A DNA stretch of 64,000 bases from contig CM055092.1 in assembly GCA_029204225.1 (NCBI GenBank), forward strand, positions 40,211,820-40,275,819. The letters are read 5' to 3'. The position numbers and the translations under genes are program-made. Numbering within the stretch: position 1 is the first letter of the stretch; each line of letters opens with the position of its first letter. This DNA is from Diphasiastrum complanatum. Lineage: Eukaryota > Streptophyta > Lycopodiopsida > Lycopodiales > Lycopodiaceae. The notes under the pieces were generated by a model. It saw only the letters and a program-made list of their open reading frames with translations, ran no database searches and was not told the DNA's origin. Shown here piece by piece: positions 48,031-56,967 of this stretch.

Positions 48031-49170
<1,140 letters not shown>

Positions 49171-49489
49171 AACACAATTTCCTATTGAATGGGTAATTTT
49201 TTCAACTAAGGAGAAACATTTGGAATATTCCCTAAGATACTTCAAAAAATAACCTCTTTATATGGGTGTCAACAAAAAAGCAATACGCATGTGCAAAGTA
49301 TTTTTCAAATTACATTAAAAGAGAGACTTTTTTTTTGTTTTTGACAAGAATAACAATTATACCATTTTTTGGGGTTCTCAAGACCACTTGGAAGAACATT
49401 TCCTTTCAAAGAGTACCAAGTTTAAAAAAGAAGCACATTTTTAAAATGCTCATACTCTTACGATATAAAAGTGACAAACAAAAAAAGTA

Positions 49490-49745
49490 ATTACTTATAT
49501 TTTCAAAACTCTTTGGACTCATACATGTCCAAATGCTAGTCACTATCAATCCCATCACTATTAGTAGTTATAGGTGGTGATAATCCTGTAAGTGGTGGAA
49601 GAAGCATTCTCTTCTTCACTATGTACTAAAACATTGCCTTCCTCATGATGCAAGCCATAATTTTCACAGTTTCCCATACTTCTTCTGGTTCGTGAGGACA
49701 ATTTTTTGCTTTAGGATTTCAATAGTAGACTTTCTCGAATGACCT
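49490..49745 (-). pseudogene. Possible C-terminal exon of the transposon protein
   Basis: The minus-strand reading SFEKVYY, stop, NPKAKNCPHEPEEVWETV continues open for about 30 codons, then is broken by further stops. It lies in the right place and orientation to be the 3' part of the gene at 50,703-50,405, but no family motif confirms it. Confidence 0.25.
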
Positions 49746-49846
49746 AATTGATGAGCATGAAGTCATACACTAAAATATCCACTTCCCAAATTCTTTTTCA
49801 TTCTAGTTTCGATGCTTAACCATTCTATGTACATTATTGTTTGTAG

Positions 49847-50215
49847 TTCATTTAAAATGAATAACTTTTTAACTGTAGCTCCAATTGAGACAAAAATCAT
49901 ACCGTTGGAAAGCGCTCAACGAGAGCTTTCCAATGGTACCTAATGGCCTACTTCTGAGCTATCGTTCAAAAGTTATGGCCGGTCAAAGTTTCAGACCAAA
50001 AAAAAGGTCCACATATCTCTCAAAGAGACACACAAGAGAGATATGTGGACTTTTTTTTTGGGTCTGAAACTTTGACCGGCCATAACTTTTGAACGGTAGT
50101 CGGAAGTAGGTCATATAGCATACCCTTGGAAAGTTCTCATCAAGTGCTTACCAACGGTATAGTTTTCGTCTCAAAGGGAGCTACGGTTAAAAAGTTATGC
50201 TGTTTTAAATGAGAA
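49847..50215. mobile_element. Foldback/MITE-like hairpin, about 369 bp
   Basis: ATAACTTTTTAACTGTAGCT (49861) faces AGCTACGGTTAAAAAGTTAT (ending 50199). The inverted similarity runs in to GTCCACATATCTCT (50007-50020) and AGAGATATGTGGAC (50037-50050), leaving a loop of about 15 bp. Outer ends TCATTTAAAA and TTTTAAATGA extend the arms. Arms are about 175 bp with scattered mismatches. No coding capacity is seen. It sits between the two pieces of the minus-strand transposon gene. Confidence 0.75.
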
Positions 50216-50404
50216 TTGCATATTATGCTATGAATAACATGTCATGTTTGTGGGCTGCTCCCGACGCCGAATTATAGCATTATTAAGAAAAACTTTTTTT
50301 TTCAATTCTAATGAGCTATGTTACGTAGAATTTAAATTTGAGTGTTTTGATTGGTCCATGTGTAAGCGAAATTTGAGAAAAAAATATAAAAAATATCTTT
50401 ACAA

Positions 50405-50703
50405 TTAGAACTCCTCTACAGTGTTTTTTTTTTTATCCATCCCATCAATGACAATGCCAAAATACTTCTCTGGAAATCCAAAGCATTTTTTACGGTGATG
50501 CATTATTTTTTGACATTCCGCTGCTTGTTCATCTCTATGATCATTCAAAGGTGACTTCACCGCCGCAATCTCCGTCGGATCCCTTAAGGCTTTTCTTTTA
50601 CTTTTCAATTCTACACACGTACTGCATACTTCCATTTGCACTTTTCGTGGAATAGAGGCATTATTGAAATCTCTCAAAGTTTTGTGAAATATCGCACTCC
50701 CCT
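50405..50703 (-). pseudogene. Transposon-protein fragment with IDGMD motif
   Basis: The exon appears to start after a TTTTCAG acceptor at 50,703. It reads GSAIFHKTLRDFNNASIPRK, CSTCVELKSKRKAL, LNDHRDEQAAECQKIMHHRK and YFGIVIDGMDKKK. A Cys-x2-Cys with a basic helix, followed by IDGMD, resembles a block I remember from uncharacterised transposon-derived proteins of animals and protists. The frame ends soon after a long A run, a likely frameshift. The methyltransferase gene starts head-to-head at the same point. Role (transposase) is inferred. Confidence 0.45.
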
Positions 50704-51866
50704 GAAAAGACGAAGAGAGTCAAAGTCCTGGCCAAGAAAAAATTAAAAAACGATGACGAATCATTTGGCAGCTCTGATAGTGACGGTGGTTCTGATAGCG
50801 AGGCCATACTTCCTGGTGGTTTGCTAAAGACGGGTGTAATAAAGACTGATCAGAATAAAATCAAGGAGACAATTCAAAACGAAAAGATTGCGTCGCGCAA
50901 GATCTTCACCTTGCCTATTGAAAAAGTTCATTGGCCTCCTATTGACCCCGATAAATGTAGGAGGACGATGGAAGTGAGAGCTCCTCACAAAGTGCATGTC
51001 ACTAATTTGATGAAGAAAATGAAGCTAAATCCACATGCGACTATTGTGCCTATCATTGTGTTAGTGATCCTTAACAGTGTCCTTCCAAGAAAGATTTTAA
51101 TGAGAAAAAAATTGAGCTTTATGATTATTATGTTATTGGTGGATCCCACTCAACCGAGGCACGAAGACATCTAGTGGCCGCTTATCCGACTACGAGTATT
51201 TTTTGATTTGTTGAATGTAAAATATTCTATTATCTGACACTCGAAGAAGCGAAGTTACTTGTCTGGGATCACAATAATGATAACGATTACAATGCCAGGA
51301 TGTCATTTCTTGAAAAAATACGATTTTTTCACCATGAATATGTTGATTATCTTAAATCTCACGAAAAAGCTGATGGTGCATTGAGGCACCAATGTTTGCT
51401 AGAGGTTGGAGTTGTCATTAATGAGTCTGAAAAGTCACATGGCCTACGTAAATATGATTTGTGGTTTCAATTGGCTTTTCGTCAAGGACAAGTGTGGGAT
51501 ATTCAAGACACTATTTTTAGAATGTGGGAGAATAAGGAGCTGAAGGGCCAGAAGGTCTCGAAGGAAAAAGTTGTTCTTACCACTTTGTTGAAAGAGGGTA
51601 CAAAGAAGCTTGACCTTCAGATTGAGGAGCTCGCTGATGATATGAGGGGGTACTGGTGGAGATCTCTGCAGGGAATCAAGAATGAGACCACCATTGTGTC
51701 GGTGCTTTCACGTGTAGTCTCAAAGGAGCTTAGCATGGACAAAATGCACCTTGAGTTTAAGAAGTAGGCTATTTTGATATTTAGTCGTTTAATGTTGTTA
51801 TTAGTATAATACTTGCTTTGCTAATCTATTTACTTGATTGAGTTGGTGATACTTAGTCTATGTAGA

Positions 51867-51925
51867 GCATCGAGTGGTAAACCAACTCGATGCACTGCAT
51901 CGAGTTAGTAACACCAACTCAATGC
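51867..51925. repeat. Two adjacent palindromes inside a methyltransferase-gene intron
   Basis: 51867-51893 is GCATCGAGT, a short middle, ACTCGATGC. 51897-51925 is GCATCGAGTT, a short middle, AACTCAATGC. The period is about 30 bp. Single arms GAGTTGGTG (51,839) and CATCGAAT (51,930) lie on either side, hinting at a longer decayed array. Confidence 0.7.
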
Positions 51926-52307
51926 ACGTCATCGAATTTTTGTTGCTTACCTCTCACAATTATTATCTGTTTTTCTCATCACGGTATATCTGCTGTCACA
52001 AAGTGTTCATCCAAATTCAAGAGGTGATGATGAAGCGGCTGAACTGCGCCAGCTGGAATGAGGTCAAACAAAACTATCCGACTACCAGTTCAACGAAAGC
52101 TCCGTTTGAATTCTTTTCGGCTTTCCAGAATTATAAGGTAAGAATATAAAAACAATATATTTATGTTTTGTTTTAAATCTTTATGATGTATTATTAAACT
52201 TATATATTTGATGTTGTGGTTTTACAACCAAAAAAGGCAAAGGCTGGAGAGGACTTGGATTGCCCTCCAATCTTTTTGTCGCATATATAGAGGGATAAGG
52301 AAAAATG

Positions 52308-52395
52308 CTTCTTGGTTTCCAAGGGGAGGTTCGAACCTGGGACCAAAGAAACTTTGGATGCCAAGCTAACCAGTTGAGCCAACCCCGTTGGGTCT
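52308..52395 (-). mobile_element. Short tRNA-derived SINE insertion (88 bp)
   Basis: Read on the minus strand, TTGGCTCAACTGGTTAGC resembles a polymerase III A box and GGTTCGAACC is a perfect B box. The order and spacing are those of tRNA-derived SINEs such as plant Au-like elements. It is flanked by perfect 14-bp duplications GATAAGGAAAAATG (52294-52307 and 52396-52409). It sits inside the methyltransferase motif-IV exon and, with one duplication, adds 102 bp, so the frame is kept. Confidence 0.8.
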
Positions 52396-54300
52396 GATAA
52401 GGAAAAATGAATGAGGATTCAGTTAAAAGATTCCCTCCCGCCAATGTCTGAGGATTATAAAACCTTCACTTGTCTTTTGGATCCGATGAGGACATTTACG
52501 TATCGAGTTGTTTGTTCTGATGTCTCGAAATTGATAGAAGACGTCCCAAAGCATAAGTATATTCTTGCCATTGTGGATATTCCATATGGTTTCAGAATGT
52601 CTGGCTCCATTAATGACTTGAGACCATCTCCTTACCCTCAAATAATGAAGCTGGTGACTGATTTTGCTACCTTGACAACATTTTCTTTATGGAGATGTGT
52701 GATTTTCCATAGCGTGGCTCAATCGTCATCAGTCATTGCATCTCTGAAAGCTACATGTCATGCTATTGAGCACCTTGTATGGTATGTCATTTTAATTACA
52801 TATTGTGATATTTATTTTGATTTAGTTAATGTTTGAAAATGTATGTCTGAATACTAATATGGTATAACATATGTAGGAACAAAACAAAACTTGAACGTGC
52901 ACTGGGTTGCCGGCTTATCAGTTCTTTTAGAATCATGACCGTGGGCTACTATGATGCCCATGAGAAAAAGAGATTGCGGATCATTGCAATGAGCAATGTA
53001 GTAATGTCATTTCTTGTCCAGCTGTCACTCGAAAATTGAGACACTTGGAGGGTGATAGGTCTTTGGTTAACCCTTACCAAAAGCCTCAGAGATTAATCAA
53101 TAAGTTGATTGATATGTTTTCGAATGAGGATGATTGGATTATGGACATGTTTGCAGGAATAGGTATGAAGATGTGTTTCTTTGCTTAAAATTAGTTCTTA
53201 TTATTGATTATTAACTTTTGAATTTAATTTTTATTTTTTACAAATTACTTATTCTTTTATATACTTTTACATGTAAGTACTACCACATATTGTGCCCTTA
53301 AGATAAAAAGGAATTGTGTAGTTGTTGAAGTGGATGAAGTCCAGGCAACCTATATTGAGATGAGAGTGGCTGCTATTCGAGAACTTCCAAATGAAGATCA
53401 GGAAGTTGGGGCTCGAACAATCGACAATAGTGAGAGGTTCCAAAGTGTCTCATCCGAACTGGTTCCCCCACTACTAAACGAAGAAGGGGAGCTAGTTGGG
53501 TTGAAAGATGATATTAATGAGCCCCCTCAAGATTTCACTAATAAGGCTACTGATGTCGTTGATGTGGGGCAAGCCTCTCAATCAACCCAGAAGGCCTTAC
53601 CTGAGATGTTACTAGATATTGCTTGATACGTTAGGGAATATATGTTGTTGGATATTGATTTGCAGACATAAATGTAATTGGCCAAAACCTTATGTTATTG
53701 GATACTTATATTTGAATGGAAAGTACCAAAATTGAAAATCAAATTTTTATTTTTGTGAGATTCACAATGATATATTTGAGATATTATGTTTCGTGAGCTT
53801 ATTCTTAGATTTATAAAAAGTTCTTGTTTATTTATGTAGTATTATTCTGCGTTTTGATAAATTTATTTGCTATAAAAAAAATTTATTAGATATGTTTTAT
53901 GCAATCTAATACATCATTATAATGTTTTGAAAATATCTAGATGCCAATATTTAGATGACATTTAAAATATGAATAATTTATTAATGATTTATGCAAGTAC
54001 CTATAACAAAATCTCAGCGAAGAGTTAATTAGCTATATGAATTTGAAATTCATTTTTTGTTTGTGATATTTTTTAAAACAATATCAAATTTGCAATGCAC
54101 GTAATTGTGTAGTACTAATGTATTTTTGAAAATATGGTATGTGCATCTTAAGGATTTTAAAAAGTCAAAAAGCCTGCACTTAAAAAAATAATTTTACCCA
54201 AAAATGTGATTTTATTTTTGGTACCTTGATTTTTTAAGTTTTGAAGGGAATCTTCTTAGGAGAAATCTTTTCAATTACCCACTCAATAGGAAATTGTGTT

Positions 54301-54690
54301 AGGAGGAGGTGAACTTTTTTCTCTATACGCCTAACCGTAAACTCTAATTATAAAACACTAATCCCTTATCTTGATTCTCGTAAATTGGACTCCTAATACA
54401 GGGGCTGAGGAACCTCTTCGTACATTCTAAAAATAGTGACTCCTGACGGTCTCAGCTTTGCGAGGGTTGTCATCTTGGTTCCCATAATCATTTGTCCTAA
54501 AGCCCCTTACCCCAAATCCATTTACCTAGATCCCTTACTCCAAATCCTAAAAACCTAACACCTAAAACCCTAAACCCTAAACCACAAGACTCCTTACCTT
54601 AAACTCTAAAACTAAATCCCAAAGCCTCTTGCTCTAAATACTAAAACTAAAACACCAAGCCCCTTTCCCTACATGTTTTACTTTAAATCT
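54301..54690. repeat. Degenerate telomere-like repeats, interstitial
   Basis: Three intact CCCTAAA-type units occur in AAACCCTAAACCCTAAACC near 54,567-54,585. They lie within about 200 bp (54,490-54,660) of looser variants such as AATCCTAAAAACCTAAC and AACTCTAAAACTAAA. This is an old, decayed tract just outside the TIR unit, not a chromosome end. Confidence 0.65.
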
Positions 54691-55794: not shown

Positions 55795-56967
55795 CTAAAC
55801 ATCATGCCAAGCCATGGATTCCAAGGCATTTTGTGCACTTGAAGATACATCAATTAAAATATTAAGTGCATAAATAATGTTGCCAAAGACAACTTGTCTT
55901 GCTTGATCCATATGATTGAGCCTAGATGGCTCCATCTTGATACTCAAGGTTCTCCTTGGAGTCCTCGGGTCTTGAGCTTGATCCTCCACTTGACTTGACT
56001 CCAAAACATCTATGAATTGAATAATGTGTTGATCAAAAGGTGCTTCTTCAAGTTTACAAATCTTCCACTCTTGAAAGATCACATTTCTACCATTGACAAA
56101 TTCTTTGGTTGAAAACAAGTAGATTCTACAATCTCTACTTGAAGAGCAAAACACTACCATTATTCCTATCATTGAAATAGGATAATCTTTGGTCCTTACA
56201 TTGGAATGATCATGCTCAAAGCATGTGGACCCAAAGATTTCCAATACAAATGATGTTTCATCTTTTATGACACTATTCAAACTATTACAAAAATAGTTAT
56301 CCAATGAAATCGCTTTATCAACAACAAATGTAGACTTCAAAGCATCCCATTTCATTGTCTTGTCATACAAAGTAATAAACACCATGAATCTTAAAGGTAA
56401 GAAACAAGTCACCTCATGTCTACTAATACTTTCCAAAAAGTATTCAAAGATAGTAGACTCTCCAATGCTCACCACCCTTGCAAGATGCACACTTGAATGG
56501 ACAATTTGCATGCAATTTGATGACTCGGACATTGTCATTGAGGACTCCCTTGGAACTCTCATGCTTTGAGGATGAACCTCAAAATCTTCCTCCTTTTGAT
56601 GCTCCTCCTCAATGCAAGCAAGATCACACTTTGCCAAGATCTCCTCTTGAGTGATCTCCTCCTTTGCCAAGCTCATTCTTTTAAAAGCAACACTAGCTTC
56701 CAACTTAAACAATCTTCCATGTTTAAATCCCTTTGCAATGCAAACATCATTATTCAATATGAAGCAAACACCATGCTTAAAGTGGACATCCAAACCACTC
56801 TCTAAGAGTAGACCAACACTAAGCATATTCTTGGTGATTGATGGTACATAAAGGACATTTTCTAGATCCATGCATTTTGAGGATTCTAGATACAAAGAGA
56901 TGGTGCCAACACCATCTATCCTACACTCTTCATCATTTGCTAAAAAAGACAAACTTTTTAGCAGCAT
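55795..56967 (-). CDS. Copia-3 protease end and diverged pol region, 390 codons open
   Basis: The frame starts with protease and pre-integrase sequence (DGVGTISLYLESSKCMDLEN, VLYVPSITKNMLSV). It then loses similarity where the integrase core should be: no HSD, TDNGGEY or QQNGVAERKN. Further on, IFGSTCFEHDHSNVRTKD, LFSTKEFVNGRNVIFQE and SRLNHMDQARQ mirror the integrase C-terminal region and linker. The frame stays open for 390 codons despite losing catalytic motifs. RT and RNase H never follow. Confidence 0.75.
   Translation of the reverse strand: MLLKSLSFLANDEECRIDGVGTISLYLESSKCMDLENVLYVPSITKNMLSVGLLLESGLDVHFKHGVCFILNNDVCIAKGFKHGRLFKLEASVAFKRMSLAKEEITQEEILAKCDLACIEEEHQKEEDFEVHPQSMRVPRESSMTMSESSNCMQIVHSSVHLARVVSIGESTIFEYFLESISRHEVTCFLPLRFMVFITLYDKTMKWDALKSTFVVDKAISLDNYFCNSLNSVIKDETSFVLEIFGSTCFEHDHSNVRTKDYPISMIGIMVVFCSSSRDCRIYLFSTKEFVNGRNVIFQEWKICKLEEAPFDQHIIQFIDVLESSQVEDQAQDPRTPRRTLSIKMEPSRLNHMDQARQVVFGNIIYALNILIDVSSSAQNALESMAWHDV

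Follow-up and report, generated by a model that had tools for sequence, protein, structure and literature searches.

An old terminal-inverted-repeat transposon with a ParB-like/DNA methylase gene in the clubmoss Diphasiastrum complanatum

Positions 49171-54300 of the stretch analysed here (the window: 64,000 nucleotides of Diphasiastrum complanatum contig CM055092.1, assembly GCA_029204225.1, forward-strand positions 40,211,820 to 40,275,819) constitute a transposon copy that is old and no longer active; the transposon is of the cut-and-paste type, is bounded by terminal inverted repeats (TIRs) and makes 4-bp target duplications. A fuller element carries two genes placed head to head, one for a DUF7869 protein, the probable transposase, and the other for a protein composed of a ParB-like and a DNA methylase domain. 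This two-gene anatomy and the partnership of the two genes, function excluded, are in our view highly likely. To the further proposal that the ParB-like domain and the methylase serve to mark the element's own DNA we assign a probability of somewhat less than one half (about 0.45). An earlier note on this DNA had described a transposon of this composition and had supposed such self-marking; its observation as a whole is confirmed, on firmer grounds than the note could offer, and its interpretation is partly supported.

Termini, target duplications and empty sites

The ends lie exactly at the two positions proposed in the earlier note, with AGGA on both sides, and the 28-nt arms are complementary at 27 positions (96%). 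The 18-bp end AACACAATTTCCTATTGA, with no more than one mismatch, occurs at 209 places (114 forward and 95 reverse) in the host genome (1.74 Gb, 5176 contigs), whereas its reversed control was found at six (two forward and four reverse); the termini are therefore not a product of chance. From 100 of the 209 places, 10 pairs of ends no more than 25 kb apart were obtained, of which two are mirrored duplicates, leaving eight distinct pairs. Perfect 4-bp duplications flank five of the eight: AGGA in the window, ATGT (L012), GAAG (L013), TCAA (L016) and ATTT (L017/L018). The size of the pairs with duplications extends from about 650 bp, resembling a miniature inverted-repeat transposable element, up to 7.6 kb. 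Two differing subterminal sequences adjoin the common TIR, one per end. The L013 flanks match themselves alone, and their overlap is GAAG.

The limits of the insert were also visible from empty sites. A 300-base query, made of 150 bases from the left (49021-49170) and 150 from the right (54305-54454) joined with a single AGGA, was matched by 43 genomic rows, which include the two flanks from which it was made. Judged by alignment coordinates, 36 of the 41 other rows span the junction (query 120-180), and in 31 of these the net difference in length does not exceed 3. Because these 36 rows run uninterrupted across the junction, the insert corresponds to 49171-54300 plus one AGGA. The empty site that had been suggested for a related accession was thus matched by uninterrupted sites within the same genome. 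Together with the 209 end places and the duplications, these sites bear out the claim of a DNA transposon with exact ends, methyltransferase gene included. The proposed genome search for paired termini was likewise positive, as other pairs exist, in units with the same two genes.

The element is inserted in a dispersed repeat, and several of the junction-spanning rows are clustered on contig C20 (at approximately 17 and 19.2-19.4 Mb). Its left flank TCAATAGGA (49162-49170) is an inverted copy of the TIR bases TCCTATTGA, therefore the left end is near-palindromic, which reflects either a target preference or chance. The end pair on contig C21 was rejected as a single unit, its flanks being palindromic, and the C11 pair spans 19.7 kb between the flanks ACAT and CATT, hence without a 4-bp duplication. 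Mirrored duplicates of one insertion, distant on the same contig, were observed for L017/L018 (C8, 11.9 and 24.9 Mb) and for L010/L060 with L061/L062 (C11, 47.8 and 49.2 Mb). These are either large inverted duplications or an effect of the assembly, and some of the counted rows consequently represent one locus twice.

The two genes and their partnership

The joined exons of the plus-strand gene (Table 1) match Pfam PF01555 (N6_N4_Mtase) with E 1e-12. None of the five single open reading frames (ORFs) of the element matched Pfam; introns and damage interrupt the gene. In a sequence search of the PDB the best methylase hit was CcrM (E 6.8e-6), followed by MboIIA, DpnA, RsrI and a putative methylase; the remaining rows shown were mostly antibody chains. 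We take DIPYGF to be a catalytic-type motif and MDMFAGI an S-adenosylmethionine-binding motif, and DIPYG placed before FAGIG is presumably the motif order of beta-type enzymes.

The ParB-like region, whose exon is damaged by a frameshift at ~51080 and an in-frame stop at ~51206, is 52% identical to the fern protein P0001. For this region the only Pfam match was to DUF6551, below threshold (E 0.025-0.035) and present in three of four scanned relatives; a PDB search with the alignment of this part returned three unrelated rows (E 0.09-0.1), and Foldseek found no match for the whole P0001 model in PDB at E 0.001. When the predicted P0001 fold was compared with VIA-align, ParB ranked first. The mean predicted local distance difference test score (pLDDT) of the model is 58 overall, with 58-88 in the blocks of the ParB part, and the predicted structure also contains an N-terminal barrel. 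The ParB N-terminal fold is thus present in the modelled fern relative. The plus-strand protein, its first part judged through this predicted fold, combines a ParB-like domain with a beta-type N6/N4 DNA methylase domain, which agrees with the gene assignment made earlier from the window alone. On the minus strand, the tRNA-like stretch inside the methylase gene reads GGTTCGAACC; ARAGORN detected no tRNA in it (52290-52400), and the insertion is probably a short interspersed nuclear element.

The earlier note had also recognized a transposon-protein fragment on the minus strand, and its exon at 50405-50677 does match the DUF7869 gene, although only ~20 residues align with the DUF7869 piece of L013. 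In this better-preserved copy the gene was identified by Pfam as DUF7869 (PF25273) with E 1.4e-40 and a score of 139 bits, versus a curated cut-off of 26; three further copies scored 150-169 bits. Bases 1-616 of the element are homologous by blastn to L012, L013 and others. In L012, L013 and L010, the position of the unmatched stretch 49787-50426 is occupied by most of the DUF7869 coding region. This stretch contains a foldback, with arms 49851-49938 and 50121-50208 (81%) and 49959-50005 and 50053-50099 (96%), and is probably a separate small element.

All 150 DUF7869 places scored in the genome had E < 1e-49. Across 11 DUF7869 sequences the IDGMD, LQLDN and GHTHDxID blocks are largely kept, and would fit the acidic triad of an RNase-H fold of the DDE type. 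The most likely role of the DUF7869 protein is that of the transposase, which would cut the DNA at the TIRs. No paper found in our literature search names DUF7869. At L074 (4216-4617) an ORF located 3' of DUF7869, on the same strand, contains the stretch GHPFWIAKV...HVHWL, which we take to resemble chromatin-reader barrels.

The same two divergent genes lie between the TIRs of L012 and L013. Methylase matches in the genome numbered at least 197 with the window query (150 of 2330 first-look candidates scored) and at least 198 with the fern protein P0027 (143 of 2826 scored); the numbers of first-look candidates indicate that the methylase family is large. The count of end pairs given above drew on 73 of these 197 matches and on 100 of the 209 TIR places. 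Two counts of neighbours up to 12 kb apart were made, one with 42 of the 150 DUF7869 rows and 109 methylase rows, the other with 150 DUF7869 rows and 139 of the 198 methylase matches, omitting weak rows and those of loci already entered. A methylase neighbour was found for six of the 42 rows in the former, and eight pairs from the 150 rows in the latter. Of these 14 pairs 13 are distinct, and all 13 have the head-to-head arrangement, which extends to lineages whose identity to the queries is only 35-57%. A control with random shifts gave a mean of 0.21 neighbours and a maximum of 2 in 2000. Among the diverged pairs, L059 has DUF7869 at 56%, while its ParB-like and methylase pieces reach 31-76% and 36-49%, respectively, and L074 combines DUF7869 at 50% with a methylase at 32%. 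Gene order in the 13 places indicates that the two genes form an old and conserved module, shared by a large group of transposons of this genome.

Table 1. Features of the transposon copy, in window positions
Feature	Positions	Strand	Basis
Left target-site duplication AGGA	49167..49170	.	sequence; empty-site rows
Left TIR, left-type end	49171..49198	+	28 nt, 96% to right arm
Degenerate 3' piece of the DUF7869-strand gene	49570..49800 (approximate)	-	blastn, six-frame reading
Stretch without match in the L012, L013 and L010 copies, containing the foldback	49787..50426	.	
Remaining DUF7869-gene exon with IDGMD motif	50405..50677	-	homology to L013 copy
Methylase-gene exon for the ParB-like region	50700..51767	+	52% identity to fern P0001; ParB fold of P0001 (predicted)
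Insertion with tRNA-like stretch	52290..52400 (approximate)	-	sequence
Methylase domain, part 1	52411..52781	+	motif DIPYGF at 52576-52593
Methylase domain, part 2	52879..53162	+	motif MDMFAGI at 53141-53162; PF01555
Last methylase-gene exon (NCVVVEVDEVQA and C-terminal tail)	53296..53626	+	
Right TIR, right-type end	54273..54300	-	inverted-repeat arm
Right target-site duplication AGGA	54301..54304	.	sequence; empty-site rows

Outside the element, a long GA microsatellite (48760-48897) lies immediately to its left, and a minus-strand polyprotein piece with Pol_BBD and retroviral SH3-like domains, presumably of the Copia type, is located at 55795-56967.

Relatives and comparable elements

A D. 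complanatum protein is 80-87% identical to the window gene over 20-46% of the queries. In the public D. complanatum gene model O6H91_23G046600 (P0026), a cytochrome P450 is fused to a piece of the methylase, probably owing to insertion of a transposon in or beside the P450 gene. The protein searches further identified the fern relatives P0001 and P0027, and the first of these searches yielded 24 metagenome proteins at 52-57%. Some metagenome relatives are long open frames. Ten of the 12 aligned metagenome proteins end at one common point, which resembles an exon end, therefore we infer that they probably come from plant DNA in environmental samples. A protein profile, used to look for relatives in algae or bacteria and scored on the 8000 candidates with the most words in common, gave 87 rows, from fern and metagenomes only, and the word-based protein searches, two of which were limited to 8000 candidates, returned no row with a prokaryote name.

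The target duplication of Sola1 elements is 4 bp, a likeness to the Sola superfamily shared by five of the eight distinct pairs here. Duplications are 3 bp in CACTA, 8 in hAT, 9-11 in MULE, 3 in PIF/Harbinger and 2 in Tc1/mariner; these superfamilies were rejected on duplication length. Sola2 also makes a 4-bp duplication (PMC3627910). The closest counterpart is Sola1-1_Ec32 of the brown alga Ectocarpus, a DNA transposon of 21.5 kb in which the gene opposite the transposase encodes a 1104-aa protein with a ParB-like domain and an N4mC/N6mA methyltransferase (PMC12477816). The clubmoss element likewise has the methylase on the opposite strand in 13 of 13 neighbours, provided that DUF7869 is the transposase. 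In contrast, those of its copies that retain the two ends together with the two genes measure 5-8 kb, and its host is a vascular plant. As far as anatomy tells, the clubmoss element follows the Sola1-1_Ec32 plan, and the earlier suggestion of an undescribed kind of transposon is not supported in that form. The same publication already states the self-marking hypothesis for the algal element, cites similar ParB-methyltransferase proteins for green and red algal transposons and mentions giant EnSpm elements in red algae (PMC12477816).

A Sola element is known in a land plant, Sola1 of Physcomitrella, for which the accessible text mentions no methylase (PMC9033089). DIRS and other retrotransposons also encode methyltransferases, Dam-like adenine enzymes in DIRS; they differ in having a reverse transcriptase, and the portion available mentions neither a ParB-like domain nor DUF7869 (PMC5890265). 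A DIRS-type identity is disfavoured because the element has TIRs with duplications. The joined methylase matched no DIRS reverse transcriptase or tyrosine recombinase in Pfam, and neither did the five damaged ORFs, which are a weak test since no domain of any kind appears in them. Viral Mariner elements with an endonuclease and a methyltransferase are similarly DNA transposons with a methyltransferase gene, but have a Mariner transposase, viral hosts and methylases of other families, with no ParB-like domain mentioned in the part consulted (PMC3627910). Our literature search, covering titles and abstract openings, returned no land-plant case, and a ParB-methyltransferase transposon in PMC12477816 alone.

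Possible role of the methylase

We propose that the ParB-like domain would bring the methylase onto the element's own DNA, which would then receive methyl marks on the amino groups of adenine or cytosine; where the host silences transposons, such a mark may favour the element's expression or its mobilisation at set times. The window copy can no longer mark its own DNA, because its methylase gene is disrupted by an insertion, a stop codon within the frame and a frameshift, and most of DUF7869 is gone.

Several points weigh against this proposal and the partnership on which it builds. Methylation of the element is a prediction and no active copy is known; the DDE transposase identity of DUF7869 is one that we infer. 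Three of the eight distinct end pairs (L019 and those on C21 and C11) have no 4-bp duplication. Among the matches listed, most DUF7869 rows have no methylase within 12 kb, which does not imply its absence, and the random shifts may exceed contig ends, which makes that control somewhat too low. Given the mirrored duplicates in the assembly, a single locus may underlie the two pairs on contig C17 (at 38.0 and 38.2 Mb). The stretches read around L059 and L074 showed no TIR pair, so that the pairing there is judged by gene order alone, and no ParB-like part was visible in the stretch read at L074.

Among the other explanations, chance formation of the inverted ends and AGGA around unrelated debris might be suggested by the shortness of AGGA and by the left flank, which repeats part of the TIR inverted. 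It is refuted by the 209 end places (six for the control), the other bounded copies and the 36 uninterrupted sites, and retains practically no likelihood. The methylase gene might instead be a passenger that a TIR element took up from the host on one occasion and has carried since, without a role in transposition. The decay of the window copy and many others would suit such an origin, as would the scarcity of methylases near the listed DUF7869 rows and the long open frames of some metagenome relatives, which could be host genes. However, the head-to-head order of all 13 distinct neighbours, including strongly diverged lineages, argues against it, and so do the medians below 1 of the ratio of nonsynonymous to synonymous substitution rates (dN/dS). 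The methylase piece (29 distinct copies, 389 pairs) has a median of 0.40, the ParB piece (17 copies, 115 pairs) one of 0.24 and DUF7869 (4 copies, 3 pairs) one of 0.46; the pairs lack independence, and for the methylase a few lie above 1, which again counts against our proposal. These medians would fit past constraint followed by decay, and we consider a passenger very improbable.

The element might have reached the plant, with its methylase, out of a bacterium or a large DNA virus, an origin that the gene pair would only mirror; such a source is brought to mind by the phage relatives of ParB-like and N6/N4 methylase domains. This concerns origin alone and is compatible with self-marking. It seems unlikely, as none of nine matches to two ParB-part peptide patterns in viral contigs was confirmed, and the named protein rows are from clubmoss and fern, none being named as a prokaryote. 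A different function is suggested by bacteria, where Dam methylation controls the timing of Tn10/IS10 transposition relative to replication. By analogy, methylation at or near the ends could time cutting relative to replication, with no shielding from silencing. An adenine-type methylase in a cut-and-paste element fits this precedent, and the ParB-like domain, by its predicted fold, offers binding at chosen sites; on the other hand, methylation target and binding sequence are conjectural. We regard such timing as possible but doubtful, and prefer the self-marking proposal.

Within the literature searched, the kind of element known from algae appears to gain three things here: the occurrence in clubmoss and fern, the scale and the partnership with DUF7869. 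Accessory genes of the algal ParB-methylase type are thereby extended to vascular plants, where many copies can be compared, and a role is suggested for DUF7869, a Pfam domain of unknown function. Tentatively, an old and extensive group of transposons with two genes might reside in clubmosses and ferns and, to judge by the metagenome relatives, perhaps in mosses, with an epigenetic system of its own, in which ParB-like loading and writing of N6-methyladenine or N4-methylcytosine would counter silencing or license excision. If true, vascular plants would contain a self-made mark of this type. The existence of a purposeful writer of DNA N6-methyladenine in plants is disputed, and a transposon-borne methylase of bacterial type, which diverged lineages have retained next to a probable transposase, would be a candidate writer, whose predicted target is its own element.

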